Of a stretch of DNA of 46,460 bases, positions 34,938 through 44,542 are shown piece by piece. Source of the stretch: Treponema sp. GTDB taxonomy: Bacteria; Spirochaetota; Spirochaetia; Treponematales; Breznakiellaceae. Every line of letters begins with the position of its first letter. The first letter of the stretch is position 1. The translations under genes and the position numbers were made by a program. The notes under the pieces are model-generated. The model searched no databases. It was given only the letters and a program-made list of their open reading frames with translations, and was not told where the DNA came from. Location: assembly GCA_009784975.1 (NCBI GenBank), contig WQXG01000019.1:1-46460 (forward strand), given 5' to 3'.

Positions 34938-35617
34938 ATAATTCCATTGGAATTAAAAATGAAAGTTCTTTACACCGTACATTAAAATTCCAGTATGTAG
35001 GACCCGGCGGAAAAACAGAAGAAGCAGTTGGTGAATATATAGCGGACGGGATAAACTCCTGCGGCGAATATATCGAGGTACAGACAGGCAGTTTTGGACC
35101 TCTTAAAAAAAAGATTAAAGAATTTACATCCTGCGGCAAGGTACGGATTATTCACCCTATTGTTGTCTCAAAAAAAATCGAAGTATATGCGCAGGACGGT
35201 ACATTTCTTTACAGGCGAAAAAGCCCAAAAAAAGGCTCACCCTGGGACATTTTTAACGCGTTGCTTTACGCCCCCGAACTGCCGCTTACAAAAGGCGTAA
35301 CAATTGAACTTGTAATGGCTGATATCATAGAAAAACGCGTAAAAAACGGCAAAGGTTCATGGAGACGGGGCGGAATTAGCATCCAGGACAAGGAATTATC
35401 CGTCTGGCACGGAAGAATAACATTGAATAAAAAAGCCGATTACCTGCGTTTTATCCCGTTTAAAAAAGGCGAAGAGTTCACTGTCTCCTCCCTGTCACAA
35501 CAAACAGGTATAAAAAAACCAACTGTCCAAAAAGCCCTTTATGTACTGACTAAAATGAAGCTTGTAAAACGCGTTTGTAAAAAGAAAAATGCCTGGATAT
35601 ATGAAAAGAATTCTTAA
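34934..35617 (+). CDS. PD-(D/E)XK-like protein with C-terminal winged helix
   Basis: The 227-residue protein resembles an uncharacterised family found in other phyla with an IEVQTGSF-type motif (from memory, perhaps the DUF8091 group; unchecked). Residues 30-60 read E30, D38, E48-V-Q50 and a Lys cluster at 58-60, a layout like the PD-(D/E)XK nuclease core with Gln in place of the usual Lys. Then comes VRIIHPIVV and RRKSPKKGSPWDIFNALL (94-111). The C-terminal 60 residues look like a winged helix (FTVSSLSQQTGIKKPTVQKA). I start it at 34934, after GGGGG, with an ATGA overlap to the small upstream gene. DNA binding or cutting is inferred only. Confidence 0.6.
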   Translation: MNNSIGIKNESSLHRTLKFQYVGPGGKTEEAVGEYIADGINSCGEYIEVQTGSFGPLKKKIKEFTSCGKVRIIHPIVVSKKIEVYAQDGTFLYRRKSPKKGSPWDIFNALLYAPELPLTKGVTIELVMADIIEKRVKNGKGSWRRGGISIQDKELSVWHGRITLNKKADYLRFIPFKKGEEFTVSSLSQQTGIKKPTVQKALYVLTKMKLVKRVCKKKNAWIYEKNS

Positions 35618-37311
35618 TTAAAGTCTCTAAGAAAACGTTCTATCTCGGCGGCGGTTGGTAATTTTAAGACTGTTTCTGCTATTTCTTTTGCTTTTTCGGC
35701 AGAAACTGAGTTTATTTTGCGTTTTACTGCCGCAATGGAAACAGATCCCATACTGAGTTTTCTTATTCCTAGCCCCAGCAATACAGGAGCCGCCAATGGG
35801 TCACCTGCAATTTCTCCGCAGACAGAAAGCGGTTTTCCTTCCTTCGCAAAAGACGCGGCTGCATCCTTAATTAGCCTAAACATAGCAGGATGATAACTTT
35901 GATAATAACTATCCACCTGCGCGTTCATTCTGTCGGCTGCGCACAGATATTGGCATAAATCATTTGACCCTATGCTGGCAAAATCGACTTCTTTTGCGGC
36001 AAGATCACAGATAAGCGCGATAGAGGGAACTTCTATCATGATACCGATTTTTACAACACGGGACATTTTGCCTTCTTTGGCAAGTTCATCCCTTGCTGCG
36101 CCAATGTGCTCTTTTGCCCTGCGAATACAATCAAGAGAACTAACCATTGGAAGCATTAGCCAAAGATTACCGTATACAGAAGCGCGCAAAGCCGCTCTTA
36201 ACTGTGTTTTAAAAATATCCGGGTTATTTAAACAGAACCTTAAACCCCGATTTCCCAAAAAAGGGTTTTCTTCGTTTTTTATATTCATATACGGGAGTTT
36301 TTTATCTGCGCCAATATCCAGAGTACGCAGTATCACCGGCTTTTTGCCGAAACTTTCCAAAACTTTGCGGTAGCAAGCCAATTGCTCTTCTTCTGTTGGC
36401 AGCGAACTGCGTCCTAAAAATAAAAATTCTGTCCGGAAAAGACCTGCCATATCAGCATAATTTGCCGCATCCAATTCATCTGTATTGGAAATATTAACCC
36501 CAATATCAATTTTTTCCCCGGAAATACAACATTCGGTGAACCGGAAAGTTTCGGCATCTTCCCTATCCAGGCGAAATTCATTCATTTTTATTAAAAATTT
36601 ATTTTTGGTATCATCATCAGGATCAAGGATTACGGTTCCTTCTGCGGCATTAACCGCGGCATTCTGCCCCTGTTTTACAAGCCCCATAAGACCTTCTATG
36701 CCCAAAACGCAGGGAATCCCGTAACTTCTTGCTATAATCGCGGTATGGCTTGTTTGTCCGCCTGTTTCCGTAAGAATTGCCAATACTTTGTCTTTGTCTA
36801 AACTTGCGGTATCTGAAGGTTTAAGGTCATAAGCGGCAATAATAACAGGTTCTTTAAAGGAGGTTAAATCTTCATTCTTTTGTCCGTACCAAAGCCGCAG
36901 CAACAGGGAGCGGACATCTTCAAAATCGGCAGTCCGCTCTGCAATTAAAGGATCGGGCGCCTGCCGCAATACAGCAAGAACTGTATCATAAACATGGTAA
37001 ATTGCCCAATCTCCGGACCATAAATTATTTAATATTCTTGCAGGGATTTCTTCGTTAATAATAATATCATCAACAATTTCCTGATGCGCCTTAAAAATTT
37101 CAGCTTTTGCAGGGTCGATTTTCTGCAAAGAAATCCTGTACTCTTCAAGCTCCAGTTTTGCCTGCTCTTTTACAGAAAGATAACGCGAATAATGACCCTG
37201 TTTTTCTTCTTCTTTTATTGGAGTTTCTAAAGGAATGATTTGTTCTTTATAGTAAATATAAACGCTGCCAACCGCCGCTCCGGGGGAGGCGCTTTTTCCG
37301 GCTAATTGCAT
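35614..37311 (-). CDS. ptsI: PEP-protein phosphotransferase (Enzyme I, PtsI)
   Basis: Enzyme I takes phosphate from phosphoenolpyruvate and passes it to HPr. The 565-residue protein has the phospho-His motif GGQTSHTAIIAR with H189 and the PEP-binding barrel (RTLDIGADKKLPY, GNRGLRFCL, SIGSNDLCQY and the active Cys in VCGEIAGDP). No HPr or EII gene lies nearby, so it may serve a regulatory PTS, as proposed for other treponemes. The ATG follows directly after an intrinsic terminator U-tract, without a ribosome binding site. The 3' end overlaps the convergent gene by four bases. Confidence 0.94.
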   Translation of the reverse strand: MQLAGKSASPGAAVGSVYIYYKEQIIPLETPIKEEEKQGHYSRYLSVKEQAKLELEEYRISLQKIDPAKAEIFKAHQEIVDDIIINEEIPARILNNLWSGDWAIYHVYDTVLAVLRQAPDPLIAERTADFEDVRSLLLRLWYGQKNEDLTSFKEPVIIAAYDLKPSDTASLDKDKVLAILTETGGQTSHTAIIARSYGIPCVLGIEGLMGLVKQGQNAAVNAAEGTVILDPDDDTKNKFLIKMNEFRLDREDAETFRFTECCISGEKIDIGVNISNTDELDAANYADMAGLFRTEFLFLGRSSLPTEEEQLACYRKVLESFGKKPVILRTLDIGADKKLPYMNIKNEENPFLGNRGLRFCLNNPDIFKTQLRAALRASVYGNLWLMLPMVSSLDCIRRAKEHIGAARDELAKEGKMSRVVKIGIMIEVPSIALICDLAAKEVDFASIGSNDLCQYLCAADRMNAQVDSYYQSYHPAMFRLIKDAAASFAKEGKPLSVCGEIAGDPLAAPVLLGLGIRKLSMGSVSIAAVKRKINSVSAEKAKEIAETVLKLPTAAEIERFLRDFN

Positions 37312-37346
37312 AAAAAAAATGACCTGACCGCAAAGCGATCAGGTCA
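37312..37346 (-). terminator. Rho-independent terminator of the flaA operon
   Basis: On the minus strand an 8-bp perfect stem (TGACCTGA with TCAGGTCA, 37346-37339 and 37327-37320), extended by an inner CGC/GCG pair after one mismatch, is followed by eight Ts at 37319-37312. It lies 11 bases after the flaA stop. The T-run ends exactly where the ptsI ATG begins. Confidence 0.9.
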
Positions 37347-37357
37347 GATATTGTTTT

Positions 37358-38074
37358 TTACCAGCCATCAACCATGTCGTCTTCATCACGGTGATGCTCT
37401 GAAAAGAGGTCGGTATTTGCGCGAAGATCGTCAAAGTAAATGTAATAGCTGCCTCTTGACTCTAACGGGTCACAATCAACACGGAAACCTATAACTTTAA
37501 TGCCAAAGTGGTTTTGATAATGGTAGCTTCGCTGTACTACGCCGCTTAATCCATCATCCGGAGCAGGTGGAATGGTAGCATACAATTTCTGCCAACCCAT
37601 GAAATTAAGTTTACCCATGCTGAATTCATATTTTCTGCCGAAAAAATCTTCGATTAATATGTAAAGTTCATGGTTAAAATTACGTCCTGCAACCCACAAA
37701 GTTATGGTTTTTGTTATACCTTCAATTGGAATGGGGCGTACCGGATAAATAATAAAACTGTTATATCCTCTGCGCAGAAAATCTACCCTTGTACCCAATA
37801 CATAATCATCCGGGATATCAAGTCCTTCTTCTTCAGGAATCGGCTCTTTTCCGGCGGGAGAACCCCTGAAAAGCCTGGTTGTTGTATAACCTTCGTCGCG
37901 GGACATTGTAGATCTCCAAAAACCATCGTTTTCAAACTTGTCTACAGAAACTTCTCTAATCATCTGCTGAGCGGATTCAATGCCGATCCTGTCTGCATCC
38001 GGTGTCCCAACTTCCTGGGCATAGAGAAAACCGCCAATAAAAAAGATAAGTGTAATAATTAAAAACTTCTTCAT
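37358..38074 (-). CDS. flaA: Periplasmic flagellar filament sheath protein FlaA
   Basis: FlaA proteins coat the FlaB core of spirochaetal periplasmic flagella. The 238-residue protein has a signal peptide ending near LYAQ (residue 20). The FlaA signature follows: TLWVAGRNFNHELYILIEDF, MGKLNFMGWQKL, VIGFRVDCDPLESRGSYYIY and FDDLRANTDLFSEHHRDEDD, ending in MVDGW. It is shorter than the T. pallidum FlaA as I remember it (about 350), but the C-terminal core is complete. AAGGAG precedes the ATG. It is the second gene after the consensus promoter at 38893-38921 and is followed by a terminator. Confidence 0.92.
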   Translation of the reverse strand: MKKFLIITLIFFIGGFLYAQEVGTPDADRIGIESAQQMIREVSVDKFENDGFWRSTMSRDEGYTTTRLFRGSPAGKEPIPEEEGLDIPDDYVLGTRVDFLRRGYNSFIIYPVRPIPIEGITKTITLWVAGRNFNHELYILIEDFFGRKYEFSMGKLNFMGWQKLYATIPPAPDDGLSGVVQRSYHYQNHFGIKVIGFRVDCDPLESRGSYYIYFDDLRANTDLFSEHHRDEDDMVDGW

Positions 38075-38085
38075 TTATATACTCC

Positions 38086-38862
38086 TTAGTTTGACCAGAG
38101 TCTGTCAACATGCGCTGGATCGGCCAAATCATTGCCGTCAAACAGATTTTCAAACATATCTGTTAATACCTTTAACTGTTTAAAATAAATATAAAAATTA
38201 TCTACTCTTTCCGTAGGTTGTGTCCAAATACGGAATTTGACAAAGGTAAGACCTGCGTAAGAAGGCAATGTCCTTCTTGCCTGAGGAATATGATTCGGCA
38301 CATTAACCCTTAAGTTTCTCCAACCGGGATAGGCTATGTCCCCTAAATGCAGGGTATGAATTACACCCCTGTAATCCCTTAAAAAGACCTCTATGTAGTA
38401 CCTTAAATTTGCTCCCCATACCCAGCAATCAATATTACTGACTCTGCCCGGAATTGGAATTTCAAACGGTTTATCATCTCCCGCCAAAACCGGATACATA
38501 TCAATCCAGTTATAACCTCTGCGGTCGAACTTACCGTGCAGACCCAAGCTCCTTAAAGGCGTGCTGTTGGCATCCCTGTTATATCCAAAAGCGGAAGCCG
38601 GCCAGGCATCTACATAGGTAGTAAGCGGGTATTTTGTATTGTTACCATCGCTATCCTGTACAGGTTCGCCGTTTTCATCCCTGACAGTGGAAATAAACCT
38701 GCTGGATACTGTTTTCCAGGTGTACGGAGCATCGTCATCCCCATTAAAAGATTCCAGAACCCTTGTTTCCCAACTGACAGCCTTATCCTGCCCATAAGCT
38801 GAAAAAACCGTAATAAATGCCCATAAAATCAGGCAGATAATTTTTAAACTACCTTGTTTCAT
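38086..38862 (-). CDS. FlaA-like sheath protein (second FlaA paralogue)
   Basis: This 258-residue exported protein shares the FlaA layout with its neighbour: a signal peptide to about residue 24 (FSAYGQ), RRGYNWIDMYPV where FlaA has RRGYNSFIIYPV, DCWVWGANLRYYIEVFLRDYRG, GDIAYPGWRNLRVNVPNHIP, FVKFRIWTQPTERVDNFYIYF and a final acidic tail. The distinctive long N-terminal insert (DSDGNNTKYPLTTYVDAWP) is absent from the neighbour. AGGAG precedes the ATG. Tandem FlaA-like genes are known, as I recall, in T. denticola. It is probably a minor sheath or accessory filament protein. Confidence 0.82.
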   Translation of the reverse strand: MKQGSLKIICLILWAFITVFSAYGQDKAVSWETRVLESFNGDDDAPYTWKTVSSRFISTVRDENGEPVQDSDGNNTKYPLTTYVDAWPASAFGYNRDANSTPLRSLGLHGKFDRRGYNWIDMYPVLAGDDKPFEIPIPGRVSNIDCWVWGANLRYYIEVFLRDYRGVIHTLHLGDIAYPGWRNLRVNVPNHIPQARRTLPSYAGLTFVKFRIWTQPTERVDNFYIYFKQLKVLTDMFENLFDGNDLADPAHVDRLWSN

Positions 38863-38892
38863 CCCTAACTCCTTTGATAGTTACATACTTCA

Positions 38893-38921
38893 ATTATATT
38901 TGTTTGCGTTATCTTTGTCAA
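38893..38921 (-). promoter_or_regulatory. Perfect-consensus sigma70 promoter of the flaA pair
   Basis: Minus-strand TTGACA at 38921-38916, a 17-bp spacer and TATAAT at 38898-38893 match both consensus hexamers exactly. Start near 38886 gives a leader of about 24 bases with AGGAG. This fits constitutive high expression of a sheath protein by the housekeeping sigma factor, not sigma28. Confidence 0.9.
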
Positions 38922-38947
38922 ACCTTAAGCCCCTAATTTTCAACATT

Positions 38948-39880
38948 TTACCATGTTTTTAGTATTTTATGCAATGATCGGCTGTCAATATTTTCGGAAT
39001 TTATAAACGTAAATTTAGACTCTATAAACCCTTGAGGTAACCCGGATTTTGCCATTTTTACAGCCTGGACAACCTGGGACCATGGGGAATCGTTAATAAT
39101 AAGGGCTACATTATCGGGTATATAATCCGGGGCAAGCCAAGTAAAGCAAATAACAGGGATTTTAGTTTTTCTTTCAAGATATTCTATGCCGGTTCCGGTT
39201 AAAACAACACAGGAAATGTTTGATGTTTCAGAAAATTGAGAAAAAGACGAGAAAAAACTGGAGGTTGGGGTGGGTCTTTCATTGTTTTCCGGCGCTTCCC
39301 GCCTTTTATATTCATTTACCCCGCGTAAAAACGCTTCCCTAGCCTGAGAATGTATATTTTGCTCCAAAAAAACAATGATTCTGCCGTTTTTACCGTTGTC
39401 AAAAGCGGCAGCGGCAAGCCCTGCCCTGTAAAAGTCCCTGTCTATATCTGTTTTATATAAAAAGTAATCCTGAGGGTATCTGCCAACGGCAAAAGCAGCC
39501 GGACTGTCGTCTTCTGTGAATCTGCCTTCCAGAATAACAACAGGGATTTGCGGATTCTGTTCACGGTAAATCCGCGCGCTGCGGGCAAACCTTAAGGGAA
39601 AAAGCACACAAAACGGTTTCGCGGAATTTTCAGTTACAGCCAGCGCAACAACATCATCACTTGCGTCGTTTGCCGCTACAACGGTTCTGACAGGGCGGAA
39701 CAGGACAAGCGAAGCCTGAAACGCTTCTTTGCGGATCCGCTCTTCGCCGTAAAACCTGCTAAATTCCTGTTCGATAACAATTAACACAGGAGTACGGACA
39801 AAAAAAACGACCGGCAAAACCATAAATACGGCAATTACAAAAGCAGAGATTATAATTATTGGTTTTCTATACTTTTTCAT
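38948..39880 (-). CDS. Membrane-anchored periplasmic binding-fold protein
   Basis: The 310-residue protein has one N-terminal membrane helix (about 8-27) and a periplasmic part. This resembles a type 1 periplasmic binding fold of the BMP/sugar type (DIDRDFYRAGLAAAAF, NGRIIVFLEQNIHSQAREAFLRGVNEY, ISCVVLTGTGIEYL, IPVICFTWL, VALIINDSPWSQVVQAVKMA). A Ser/Pro/Asn-rich linker lies near residue 205. Its ATG overlaps the kinase stop by four bases (ATGA), and the kinase has an extracytoplasmic sensor, so it likely presents a ligand to that kinase. No transporter genes are nearby. The ligand is unknown; the fold call is moderate. Confidence 0.55.
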   Translation of the reverse strand: MKKYRKPIIIISAFVIAVFMVLPVVFFVRTPVLIVIEQEFSRFYGEERIRKEAFQASLVLFRPVRTVVAANDASDDVVALAVTENSAKPFCVLFPLRFARSARIYREQNPQIPVVILEGRFTEDDSPAAFAVGRYPQDYFLYKTDIDRDFYRAGLAAAAFDNGKNGRIIVFLEQNIHSQAREAFLRGVNEYKRREAPENNERPTPTSSFFSSFSQFSETSNISCVVLTGTGIEYLERKTKIPVICFTWLAPDYIPDNVALIINDSPWSQVVQAVKMAKSGLPQGFIESKFTFINSENIDSRSLHKILKTW

Positions 39881-42800
39881 AGTTTTATTTTTTCGGCAAT
39901 TTCCGCAACATCTTCAAATTCACTGTGTAACAGATGCTTCGCTATGGCGCTGAGCTGATCTCTTATATGACGAGGCCAGTTTTTTTGTTTAATTTCTGCC
40001 AGAGCTTCTTTGGCTGCCTTTTTATTTAAAGATGAGCAAGCCGAACGGATTGCAAGTAATTTTTCCTTAAGGAATTCATCTGATGCTTCGTCTGCGGGTT
40101 CATCAGATGTTTCGTCATCATTATCTGAAAGCTTGTCAATTACGGAATACAAAGACGCAAGAAATTCAGGAAGCGAAGATAAAATAAGATTGATATTCTG
40201 CTCGCGCCCTGCCTGTTCCAGCCTTGACGCTTCCATGGCAAGTTCGCTCTCCCCTACATTTGCAAGAGCGCTTTTCATTGCATGGACATTGATAAGGAAA
40301 GCAGGAAGATCATCTCCCCTGCGGCAGTTGTTTTCGCTTATTGCAGTTAATATTTCTACGGTTTTTTTTGCGTCGCGTACAAAAAATTCAGCCAATTGAG
40401 GTTCGATTGCTATATTATGGCCGCCTGCCGCATAAAGCATATTTTTCTGTCTGCGGGCATTATCCAGCACTTCCGGCGTTTGCCTGTCGCGAATATGCTT
40501 GTTAAGCACGGTATTAAGCTGACGGATATCTATCGGCTTGGAAATAAAATCATCAAAACCGTTATTTAAAAATATTTCTGCCTGCCCGGAAAGAGCATTT
40601 GCTGTTAACGCTACAATGGGCTTTGAATAATTAAGGCTGCGTATAATTCTTACGGCTTCTATACCATCCATTCTGGGCATCATGTGATCCATGAAAATAA
40701 TATCGTATACAACGCCGTCTCTAATCCTGTCTATCGCTTCAAAACCGCTTAATCCGGTATCTACTGTAATACCATAAGGCGCGAGAAGACCTCTTGCGAC
40801 ATAAAGATTAGATTCTACATCATCAATAACAAGAACATTTCCGTACGGCATATACTCCTGTGTTATCTGCGCGTTTCTCATCTTTGTAGTATTCTTTAAA
40901 TTCAGTTTCATCAGATTTTCCGCAAGCTGCCTGCCAATCGGATCGGAATTGATATAGCCTTGCGGCAAACTAACGGTAAACACAGATCCAAGACCGGGAG
41001 TGCTTTCTACTTCAATACTGCCGTTCATTAATTGAATCAAATTGCGCGTAATATTCATGCCAAGACCTGTACCTTCTGTTTTACGGTTTGTCTCCATGTT
41101 AAAGCGGCTGAATTTTTCACCGAGCTTACGCACCTGATCCGAAGTCATTCCCTGTCCTGTATCACTTACCCGGAAAATCAACATTAAACCGGCGTCTTCC
41201 TGAGGTTCAACAGAAAGAGTGAATTCTATCTGACCTTCCTGAGTATATTTAAACGCGTTGGAAAGCAGGTTATTTAAAATTTGTTTTATCCGCAGCTCGT
41301 CTCCTATAAGAGCGGCAGGAATATTTTCGTTTACAATCAATTTGAAATCAATTGGTTTGCTTTCGTAGCGTAAAATGTTTAATTTTACAGTGTCGTGAAT
41401 CAAACTTGCTATTTCGTACTGGGTTGTTACAAGTTCAAGTTTCCCAGCTTCTATTTTGGATAAATCCAGTATGTCGTTAATAATACCAAGCAATAAGTCA
41501 CCGGAATTATATATTCTTTCAAGCCCTTCTTTTGTAACAAGCGGAAGCGTATTGTCCTGCAGCTGAATTTCCGTGATACCCATTATTGCGTTCATGGGAG
41601 TGCGGATTTCATGGCTCATTTTCGCGAGGAAGTCGCTCTTTGCCTTATTGCTCTCTTCCGCTACTTCCGCCCTGCGCATCTCGGCAATCATCGCTTTTAT
41701 TTCTCTTAAATCCCTGATATACCCCGCAACCGCGTATTCTCCCCTGAATTTAACGCGAACAAGCGAAACTTCCGTAGGAATCTGCTCTCCGTCCTTTTTC
41801 TGATGCATCCATTCAAAACGGCAAAAACCCTCTTCAAATGCTTCGTCTATATATCCTTTAATGGCAAAAGTTGATTTTAAACCGGAAGGCTGAAATTCCG
41901 GAAAAAAGTCAAAAACCTGGTCTATAAATTCTTTTTTATTTGTAAGCCCGAATAATCTTTCTATTTCCTGATTTGATTCCAGAATTTTTGAATTTTTATC
42001 TATCATAAAACAGCTAAGGGGAGTAGCATCAAAAATAACCTGCGTACATTCATCCGCCTCGCGCATTTTTGCCATTAATGCCTTAAGAGTGCGTAAATCG
42101 CGGGAATAACCGCAGACCATATATTGATTTCTGTATTTAGCGCGCACCAGCGTAATTTCGCATGGTATTGTTTCTCCGTTTAATTTCCGGTGCATCCATT
42201 CAAAACGGCAGTAGCCGTCAGAAAACGCTTTTTTAAGAAACTCAAATGATTTTTCGCTAGACAGCCTTCCATCCGGCTGATATTCAGGCGATAATTTGTC
42301 AAACACATCAATGTATTCTTTTTTGCTTGACAGCTCAAATAATTTATATGCCTCTAAATTACAATCTATAACTTTATAATTTTTATCCCAAAAATTAGCG
42401 CAGAGAGGAGTCGCATCCAGCATTATCTGCGTTCGTTCTTCTGCTTTCTTTCTCCCGATAATGACGCTTAACAAAATGGAAATAAGAGCGACTGCCAGCA
42501 TTGTTCCCAATGCAATAAGTATTAATCCTATTTCCCTTAAACTATGATAATATTTATCGGCATAGGCAATTATGGCAAGATACCATCCGTTATCCAGCTG
42601 GCGAATAAACCCGACCGCTTCGTTATTGTTGTAATCTCTTACCTTTAGCTCATTAATTTCTTTTCCCTGAACCAAATCATTTTTTATAGCCACACCGTCA
42701 TTCATAAGTTCTATATTTCTGCCTATATATGCCGGATGAGGATGAGCCAATACATTAAAATCCTTATCAAACAGAATCCCGTAGCTGTCTTCCGTTACAA

Positions 42801-43413
42801 ATGTATTAACCGCATATTCCTGAATTCTGCTGATTGATATATCAAGACATACTATTCCCAGCCGGTTTCCGTTTTCATCAAAAATGCACTGGGAAAATGA
42901 CAGAGTAGTATTGCCGTAAACAGCATCTATATACGGCTGCGAAACCCCGATTCTTCCGCCTGCTTCAACTGCCGTAGAAAACCACGGACGGGTCTGCGGA
43001 ATAAAATTATCGGGCGGAGTCCAGTTTACACCTGTTAAAAATAATCCGTTAAATACATCAAAATAACCGTAAACAGAAGTTACATAGGACATCAGCCGTT
43101 CATTTGTGGTTATGTATCCTGTTGTATTCACCAAATAATTATGAATTGCGCCGGAAGACGCATTCTGCAAAATCATATTTTTAATATTTTCCGCGATTAT
43201 CCCCAATGCAGCCTGGGGTTCCAAAAGATCTGTATTTATATTTTTTTGGGTATTTTCGATTGCCGTATTTACATTGCCGAACAAATGTTTGCGCTCAATT
43301 CCGCTCATATAATGGTAGCTGAGAAAAACCATCAATGCAAACGCCAAAACAACAGATAATACCTGAACATGAGATATTAAAGCAATCAATTTTTTAAAGA
43401 TTACTTTAATCAT
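39877..43413 (-). CDS. Hybrid histidine kinase: dCACHE-PAS-PAS-HisKA-HATPase-REC-HPt
   Basis: This 1178-residue kinase is anchored by helices at about 15-35 and 293-319. They frame a dCACHE-like extracytoplasmic sensor, recognisable by PWFSTAVEAGGRIGVSQPY (143-161) and GNRLGIVCLDIS (182-193). Two PAS domains (about 331-440 and 460-570) are tandem duplicates with an exact 129-residue period. HisKA carries the phospho-His in SHEIRTPMN (H601). The ATPase domain has NNLLSNAFKY (N719), DTGQGM and GTGLGM. REC carries D909 in FMDHMMPRMDG, and HPt carries H1044 in NVHAMKSALANVG. All relay residues are present. It overlaps both neighbours by four bases, so kinase, response regulator and binding protein should form one signalling unit. 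Confidence 0.92.
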   Translation of the reverse strand: MIKVIFKKLIALISHVQVLSVVLAFALMVFLSYHYMSGIERKHLFGNVNTAIENTQKNINTDLLEPQAALGIIAENIKNMILQNASSGAIHNYLVNTTGYITTNERLMSYVTSVYGYFDVFNGLFLTGVNWTPPDNFIPQTRPWFSTAVEAGGRIGVSQPYIDAVYGNTTLSFSQCIFDENGNRLGIVCLDISISRIQEYAVNTFVTEDSYGILFDKDFNVLAHPHPAYIGRNIELMNDGVAIKNDLVQGKEINELKVRDYNNNEAVGFIRQLDNGWYLAIIAYADKYYHSLREIGLILIALGTMLAVALISILLSVIIGRKKAEERTQIMLDATPLCANFWDKNYKVIDCNLEAYKLFELSSKKEYIDVFDKLSPEYQPDGRLSSEKSFEFLKKAFSDGYCRFEWMHRKLNGETIPCEITLVRAKYRNQYMVCGYSRDLRTLKALMAKMREADECTQVIFDATPLSCFMIDKNSKILESNQEIERLFGLTNKKEFIDQVFDFFPEFQPSGLKSTFAIKGYIDEAFEEGFCRFEWMHQKKDGEQIPTEVSLVRVKFRGEYAVAGYIRDLREIKAMIAEMRRAEVAEESNKAKSDFLAKMSHEIRTPMNAIMGITEIQLQDNTLPLVTKEGLERIYNSGDLLLGIINDILDLSKIEAGKLELVTTQYEIASLIHDTVKLNILRYESKPIDFKLIVNENIPAALIGDELRIKQILNNLLSNAFKYTQEGQIEFTLSVEPQEDAGLMLIFRVSDTGQGMTSDQVRKLGEKFSRFNMETNRKTEGTGLGMNITRNLIQLMNGSIEVESTPGLGSVFTVSLPQGYINSDPIGRQLAENLMKLNLKNTTKMRNAQITQEYMPYGNVLVIDDVESNLYVARGLLAPYGITVDTGLSGFEAIDRIRDGVVYDIIFMDHMMPRMDGIEAVRIIRSLNYSKPIVALTANALSGQAEIFLNNGFDDFISKPIDIRQLNTVLNKHIRDRQTPEVLDNARRQKNMLYAAGGHNIAIEPQLAEFFVRDAKKTVEILTAISENNCRRGDDLPAFLINVHAMKSALANVGESELAMEASRLEQAGREQNINLILSSLPEFLASLYSVIDKLSDNDDETSDEPADEASDEFLKEKLLAIRSACSSLNKKAAKEALAEIKQKNWPRHIRDQLSAIAKHLLHSEFEDVAEIAEKIKL

Positions 43414-44429
43414 AGATAAACCTTTGCCTTGTCTATTGCATCTTTAATTTCATAAAACAACTGGGCAATTTTTGGATCAAAATGAGAGCCGGAGTTTTGC
43501 ATAATAATCTCGACCGCTTCTTCATTGGTAAACGCTTTTTTATAGGGACGATCCGACACAAGCGCATCGTAAACATCCACAATTGCCATAATACGCCCCT
43601 GCAGCGGAATTTCCGTTTCTTTCAGCCCGCGCGGATACCCCTTACCGTCCCATCTTTCATGATGTGTGCCGGCAAACAGTTTCGCGTTACGCAGGAACTC
43701 TCCCTCTCCTGTTCTGGAAATAATCTCGTCTATAATGCGCTCGCCTTCCATAGCGTGGCTTTTCATTGTTTCATATTCTTCTTCTGTAAGTTTGCCCGGC
43801 TTGTTTACGATAATGTCCGTAATTGAGATTTTCCCAAGATCATGCATACGCGCCGAAGAAATCATTTTTTCCACATCCCAGCCCTGAATCTCGTTGATAT
43901 ACAACCCGCGTTTTTTCATTTCATCTATTAGTATTTTGATATATATTGATGTTCGCTCAATATGCCCTCCGGTACCTTTATCGCGGTTTTCCACCATATC
44001 CGCAAGTACCGAAATTATGCTGTTTTGAAGCCTGTGCAGCTGGGAGGTGCGTTCGCGTATAATTTCATCTATATCCAGATGGGTTTTTATCCGGTTTAAC
44101 AAAACGGGCGCCGAAAACGGTTTTGTGATAAAATCTATTGCCCCAATCTCAAAGCCTTTTGCCTCAATTTCCGCGTCATTGCGGCCGGTAAGGAACATAA
44201 CCGGTACATCCTGCCAATAATTGTCAGCTTTTAACTTAACAAGTGTCTCAAACCCGTCCATTTCGGGCATTTCTATGTCCAAAAGGATCAAATCCGGGGT
44301 AATTTTCTCCAAAAGAGCAAACATTTTTGATGCAGACGGCATAGTCATGACACGATATTGGTCTTCCAGTACCGCTTCTGCCATTGAAAGGTTAGTATCA
44401 CTGTCGTCTACTACAAATATCGTTTTCAT
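43410..44429 (-). CDS. REC-HD-GYP response regulator, predicted c-di-GMP phosphodiesterase
   Basis: The 339-residue protein has a receiver domain (1-118) with D51 in LLDIEMPEMDG and K103 in ITKPF. An HD-GYP domain follows, with GGHIERTS (154-161), ARMHDLGK (HD at 196-197), THHERWDGKGYPRG (GYP at 264-266) and IMAIVDVYDALVSDRPYK. HD-GYP enzymes hydrolyse c-di-GMP to pGpG or GMP. All usual metal-binding motifs are present, so it is probably active and switched by phosphorylation of D51, probably by the kinase HPt. I start it at 44429, where the receiver begins; an in-frame GTG at 44468 adds a non-homologous stretch. An AAGGAG lies 13 bases before the ATG. It is the first gene of the three-gene operon. 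Confidence 0.92.
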   Translation of the reverse strand: MKTIFVVDDSDTNLSMAEAVLEDQYRVMTMPSASKMFALLEKITPDLILLDIEMPEMDGFETLVKLKADNYWQDVPVMFLTGRNDAEIEAKGFEIGAIDFITKPFSAPVLLNRIKTHLDIDEIIRERTSQLHRLQNSIISVLADMVENRDKGTGGHIERTSIYIKILIDEMKKRGLYINEIQGWDVEKMISSARMHDLGKISITDIIVNKPGKLTEEEYETMKSHAMEGERIIDEIISRTGEGEFLRNAKLFAGTHHERWDGKGYPRGLKETEIPLQGRIMAIVDVYDALVSDRPYKKAFTNEEAVEIIMQNSGSHFDPKIAQLFYEIKDAIDKAKVYL

Positions 44430-44542
44430 AATAAAGCTCACTCTCCTTATGCTCGTCCTTTCGGGCACATTAAACCCAGCAATGTCAACACTGTTAAAAA
44501 ACAGCTTGAAAAGGCGAGAGTTTAATCCGCTACGTAAATTTT

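Follow-up and report, generated by a model that had tools for sequence, protein, structure and literature searches.

A conserved cyclic di-GMP two-component gene pair probably joined by chromosomal rearrangement to an unrelated flagellar gene block in a treponeme

The window analysed here is the whole 46,460-nucleotide stretch of contig C19 (WQXG01000019.1) of a Treponema sp. genome of the family Breznakiellaceae (GCA_009784975.1, here G000; 2.60 Mb, 95% complete, 73 contigs), in which genes for a response regulator, a hybrid histidine kinase and a binding-fold protein, termed BP for "binding protein", precede two flaA-like genes, all on the reverse strand. With a probability of roughly 0.8, regulator and kinase are a conserved cyclic di-GMP (c-di-GMP) two-component pair that has been joined by chromosomal rearrangement to an unrelated flagellar block; the neighbourhood appears to be real but recent, and a coupling of BP to the kinase or of the kinase to flaA, if any, would be recent too. 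The regulator (339 amino acids (aa), 43410..44429) overlaps the kinase (1178 aa, 39877..43413) by the four bases ATGA, and a second ATGA overlap of kinase stop and BP start (BP: 310 aa, 38948..39880) at 39877..39880 is the proposed rearrangement junction. FlaA-like gene 1 (258 aa, 38086..38862) and FlaA-like gene 2 (238 aa, 37358..38074) both carry the FlaA domain of Pfam, and "flaA" denotes this tandem pair in the following. A preliminary description, made from the DNA alone, had reported the two overlaps, which are indeed present, and had read the three genes as one system aimed at flaA, a reading that the gene order in relatives does not bear out.

Nineteen other species of the genus carry matches to the sensor half of the kinase (53-65% identity), and only in one of them, G163, does the kinase lie beside BP. 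Twenty kinase regions were chosen by hand, comprising 18 of these 19 species (the other being G163) together with G169 (48% identity) and G184 (45% and 67% in pieces). The regulator is located directly upstream of the kinase in 19 of the 20 regions, the twentieth starting inside the kinase at a contig end, and metA, encoding homoserine O-succinyltransferase, is the next gene upstream of the regulator in 17 of the 19. The gene downstream of the pair could be read in 17 regions: in 13 of them it is rimP, directly adjoining, and neither BP nor flaA follows the pair in any of the 17. Regulator and kinase are thus a conserved pair moving as a unit. A hydrogenase cluster 3' of the pair, guessed from gene sizes, was discarded, as Pfam assigned the genes of one such region to metA, rimP, nusA, infB and rbfA. 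Matches of the regulator type in 33 of 39 genomes of the genus include paralogues and were not taken as presence of the orthologue. In the window, an epimerase-like gene stands beyond the regulator in place of metA.

The flagellar block keeps an order of its own. BP is located just 5' of the two flaA-like genes in all 39 fetched BP regions, which were hand-chosen from the listed matches and are not a random sample, with a few ending short upstream; the order BP-flaA-flaA recurs in 44 of 48 named loci, partly from the same genomes as the 39 regions, and among the matches listed BP precedes flaA in 122 of 128 genomes where both could be placed. Besides the window, only one of the 39 regions has the pair beside BP, so that the three genes are not kept together as a unit. 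Among the outcomes that would refute its reading, the preliminary description had listed a trio that relatives either do not conserve or carry away from flaA, and this is what the survey of relatives returned. It is BP, and not the kinase, that has stayed beside the flagellar genes. A common upstream neighbour of BP is fba: of the 48 named loci, 24 have it divergently oriented and directly adjacent. Six regions were fetched from the outgroup family f3, and in five of these fba faces the flaA pair without an intervening BP.

Of the 195 genomes of the family, 165 contain BP. A profile search of the order gave matches in 146 of 390 genomes, and every listed match belongs to the window's own family, with none in other families among the matches listed. 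An unannotated gene of 293-335 aa fills the BP slot before flaA in three fetched regions from two other families (L227, L228 and L230); comparison of this gene with the BP profile was weak (probability 5.9, E 0.0065), and the slot genes are possibly very distant relatives of BP. A hand count of BP against the second flaA-like gene (159 genomes with both, 19 with neither, 11 with flaA only, 6 with BP only) was set aside, since neighbouring genes vanish together in incomplete genomes.

How the two units came together is indicated by the genes on either side of the junctions. In the window genome the kinase abuts BP, while fba abuts rimP-nusA on contig C9; in G163 the same join of kinase and BP is found, and fba lies beside rimP-nusA on contig C13. 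In both species, two common adjacencies, kinase|rimP and fba|BP, have thus given way to kinase|BP and fba|rimP, the pattern expected of a reciprocal rearrangement, from which we infer most simply an inversion. An ancestral trio was rejected on synteny, as the pair and BP-flaA lie apart in almost all regions fetched from relatives. That the neighbourhood is an assembly artefact joining unrelated stretches is highly improbable: the genome is a 73-contig assembly, but both joins, kinase-BP and fba-rimP, recur in the assembly of the second species (G163; named record L133).

A third species adds to this history. In G180 the fba-rimP side is present with one inserted gene, a 480-aa ATPase_2/DUF234 protein (L220 8806-10248), and divergent metA lies directly beside BP with no pair there; elsewhere in this genome the sensor half of the kinase (best E 7e-40) and the regulator (51-63% identity) find weaker matches only. 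Judged by these gene orders, G180 appears as a genome in which the join happened and the pair was then lost from the site. A tree of four proteins places G163, G000 and G180 in one group (UFBoot (ultrafast bootstrap) 78); it shows 27 of 30 genomes, three having fallen under the length threshold, and the ptsI-like gene is represented in 21 and fba in 23 of the 30.

Several observations weigh against this account. BP and flaA lie on different contigs in six of the 128 genomes, and flaA does not follow BP in four of the 48 named loci, one of these at a contig end; in the f3 region of G240 a gene other than fba stands beside the flaA pair, and in four of the 17 readable regions a gene other than rimP follows the kinase, so that the neighbourhood of the pair is not fixed. 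G180 is 82% complete, and its pair could sit in the missing stretch, though not at the BP site; the support of 78 for the three-species group is only moderate. The inversion itself is inferred from junctions that lie on separate contigs. Finally, kinase and BP are spaced by -4 and +3 bases in the two joined species, and such tight spacing, despite protein identities between window and G163 of 52% for BP and 71% for the kinase, could reflect selection for coupling.

Some of these cases have features of their own. Three of the six genomes with BP and flaA apart belong to one genus (G055, G060 and G061), where the link may be broken, and BP copies without flaA after them are found at L175, L176 and L177.

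With respect to the pair itself, Pfam delimits in the kinase a dCache domain (52-281), one clear PAS domain (467-571), HisKA (591-657), HATPase (704-818) and REC (860-970). The preliminary description had given the architecture as dCache-PAS-PAS with HPt, of which dCache and the second PAS stand; the first PAS has no Pfam call and is recognized by reading as a sequence repeat of the second, and the HPt match is weak (E 0.00039, under the gathering score), with a conserved H1044. The relay residues that it listed are all present, and the aligned relatives keep them: H601 and D909 are found in 22 of 22 kinases, H1044 in 21 of 22 with one gap, and D51 of the regulator REC domain in 21 of 21 regulators. 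With the phospho-residues of HisKA, REC and HPt, the HATPase domain and the acceptor aspartate in place, the pair has the sequence features of a two-component phosphorelay. For the regulator start, ATG at 44429 is preferred over GTG at 44468, which is also open, and seven of 20 other regulators are 339 aa long, fitting the ATG.

The regulator combines Response_reg with an HD_5 domain in which H156, H196-D197, H256-H257 and G264-Y265-P266 are invariant in 21 of 21 aligned sequences, so that the HD and GYP motifs and the metal-binding His and Asp residues of a putative HD-GYP phosphodiesterase are present. The solved sequences closest to the HD-GYP part are 4r8z ("Cyclic di-GMP phosphodiesterase", E 2.4e-38), which is PA4781, and 4mcw, where a glutamate that is a third-metal ligand aligns opposite G152 of the regulator. 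PA4781 is, like the window protein, composed of REC and HD-GYP, and the Pseudomonas aeruginosa protein is reported to bind pGpG about 10 times better than c-di-GMP (PMC3774798). Because of this preference of PA4781, the regulator output is to be read as "c-di-GMP or pGpG".

On the input side, the dCache domain is similar to sensors of chemoreceptors, PctA among them. The amino-acid-binding dCache_1AA motif is Tyr-Arg-Trp-Tyr-Asp according to two papers (PMC11237719, PMC10104139), and the window domain carries R142, W144, Y161 and the Asp of CLD, with F137 at the first Tyr position. The motif Arg and Trp are kept in 21 of 22 aligned kinases, whereas the first Tyr position is variable. Since most, but not all, of the motif is kept, amino acids are a reasonable guess for the signal. 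The membrane kinase would sense a small molecule through dCache and pass phosphate along H601, D909 and H1044 to D51 of the regulator, which would switch the HD-GYP domain degrading c-di-GMP or pGpG. A c-di-GMP network exists in the genome, with five GGDEF and three PilZ matches over the cut-off.

The window regulator is one of five of its type in G000 (61-100% identity), four of them outside the window. These four, 61-80% identical, lie on C44, C33 (two) and C32 (loci L233-L236) and, as judged by BLAST, adjoin or sit within clusters of kinase relatives, as in expanded HD-GYP/kinase modules; in all, HD_5 gave 15 matches in about 13 frames and GGDEF six, of which five exceed the cut-off.

BP itself has no significant sequence match in Pfam, NCBIfam or PDB sequences, and weak PDB matches to LptF (E 0.059 to 0.7) were taken as chance. 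Its AlphaFold2 model is confident (pLDDT (predicted local distance difference test) 94.8, pTM (predicted template modelling score) 0.90), and Foldseek relates it to type I periplasmic binding proteins and LacI-type regulators, best to Borrelia BmpD (6shu, E 1.6e-7, TM-score about 0.5); the first 50 rows range from E 1.6e-7 to 1.7e-5 with TM-scores of 0.38-0.55 by query length and 9-16% identity. Among the matches are ribose- and allose-binding proteins and XylFII chains, including those of the XylFII-LytSN complex. While the predicted fold matches type I binding proteins and LacI-type sensors over nearly the whole protein, BP differs from them by an N-terminal hydrophobic helix, read as a membrane anchor, by the absence of a lipobox (by reading) and by its company with flaA. 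BP is thus predicted to be a membrane-anchored protein of the type I binding-protein fold, in agreement with the membrane-tethered binding-fold protein proposed beforehand. Two alignments were made, A1 with 32 of the 39 fetched BP sequences and the window, and A4 with 45 of the 48 named loci and the window, three loci having unreadable frames; R48, R62, P95, R97, P242, W248, D264 and S265 are invariant in 46 aligned sequences.

No transporter was found by Pfam among the six window genes scanned at 35614-44468, and the BP neighbours in relatives are mostly unannotated. In G009 (L054 3971-7955), BP is preceded, with no change of strand, by genes for an ABC solute-binding protein, two permeases and a sugar kinase of the PfkB type; these ABC transporter genes come with their own binding protein, of a type other than BP.

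The predicted fold raises the question of a true circuit from ligand through c-di-GMP to flagella, in which BP would bind a ligand and dock on the dCache domain of the kinase and the HD-GYP output would adjust the flagella. In XylFII-LytS, TorT-TorS and LuxP-LuxQ a binding protein docks on a kinase in this way, and a suitable predicted fold with XylFII-LytSN chains among its structural matches, the tight spacing of kinase and BP in both joined species and the presence of a c-di-GMP network would all fit. Joint inheritance of binding protein and kinase, as expected of a co-sensor of the XylFII-LytS type, is however not observed here: the pair is not beside BP in 38 of the 39 fetched BP regions, some of them short upstream, it is followed by other genes in all 17 readable regions elsewhere, and G180 keeps BP-flaA without the pair beside it. 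As the kinase moreover has its own sensor domain, and as the flaA promoter is kept regardless of the pair, such a circuit is quite unlikely.

The nearest described spirochete system, Hk1-Rrp1 of Borrelia burgdorferi, likewise pairs a c-di-GMP response regulator with a kinase encoded next to it that has a periplasmic sensor, REC and HPt, and sensing of the solute-binding-protein type has been proposed for it (PMC4013479). Hk1 has the binding-protein-like domains within the kinase and Rrp1 makes c-di-GMP; the window kinase has a dCache sensor, its regulator an HD-GYP output domain, and the binding-fold protein comes from a gene of its own that is inherited separately. No paper on this gene arrangement or on BP was found among the listed results of the literature searches, subscription papers being mostly outside their reach, and for a paper on Breznakiellaceae (PMC13067680) a term search of the main text gave no flaA, histidine kinase or c-di-GMP.

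Expression of the block can be considered from its promoters. A sigma-70 promoter, TTGACA-17-TATAAT with 12 of 12 matches, lies before FlaA-like gene 1 at 38893..38921, starting 27 bases past the BP stop, and the scan agrees with the earlier remark that no terminator-like site on the same strand lies between them. The promoter is kept at 12 of 12 in 36 of the 39 family regions and at 11 of 12 in the other three, and scores 11 or 12 in 10 of 10 outgroup regions, while only six of 195 control windows inside BP reach a score of 10; it is unusually invariant for a promoter. Because flaA has kept its own sigma-70 promoter, it need not depend on the kinase operon. A strong terminator-like hairpin of 12 pairs with a T tract (37320..37346) separates FlaA-like gene 2 from a ptsI-like gene.

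BP, on the other hand, may depend on the kinase operon for its expression. In the 200 bases before BP the best promoter-like score reaches 7 for the window and 8 for G163, compared with 8-10 in 28 other regions; these scores are low everywhere and come without a matched-length control, 150-base windows inside BP averaging 7.1. Such values, the terminator-free stretch from BP to flaA and the retention of the join in two diverged species would agree with a recent regulatory capture, in which the kinase operon took over the expression of BP and, through readthrough, some of that of flaA, a state now under selection. This is compatible with the rearrangement history, but the generally low scores before BP, the missing pair in G180 and the strong flaA promoter, which would leave readthrough a minor input, make it a rather unlikely addition to it. 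On the rearrangement reading, two ancestrally separate units would have been joined end to end, the second being BP-flaA-flaA, in which membrane-anchored periplasmic BP would accompany the FlaA-like pair; in the window species BP would probably be the last gene of the kinase operon, with flaA retaining its own promoter.

FlaA of Treponema denticola filaments is TDE1712, a 349-aa protein encoded in an 11-gene cluster for which a sigma-70 promoter has been mapped (PMC9481697). FlaA domain and sigma-70 promoter are common to both; the window pair, putative sheath proteins of the filament, is shorter, tandem and beside BP. G000 has a third FlaA gene, with a higher score, on contig C21 (26421-27161; L001), which may correspond to the main FlaA of T. 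denticola.

Of the leads arising here, a role of BP as partner of the flagella is the most valuable. Tentatively, and with more doubt than confidence, BP can be envisaged as an unrecognised periplasmic partner of treponeme flagella across a whole spirochete family, which would serve the tandem FlaA-like proteins as a chaperone or structural partner, or regulate them in response to a ligand, and which has possible positional counterparts in two neighbouring families; in one small clade rearrangement would have put BP expression under the control of a c-di-GMP phosphodiesterase and its sensor kinase of the amino-acid type. If true, this small clade would be a natural experiment in signal rewiring, and its three species, two joined and one with the pair absent, offer a ready comparison for the effect of the new operon join. 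An operon that seems built to link signalling to flagella can arise as a side effect of chromosome rearrangement, and attention moves to BP, a conserved uncharacterised binding-fold protein that tracks flaA and whose role is testable in cultured termite-gut treponemes.

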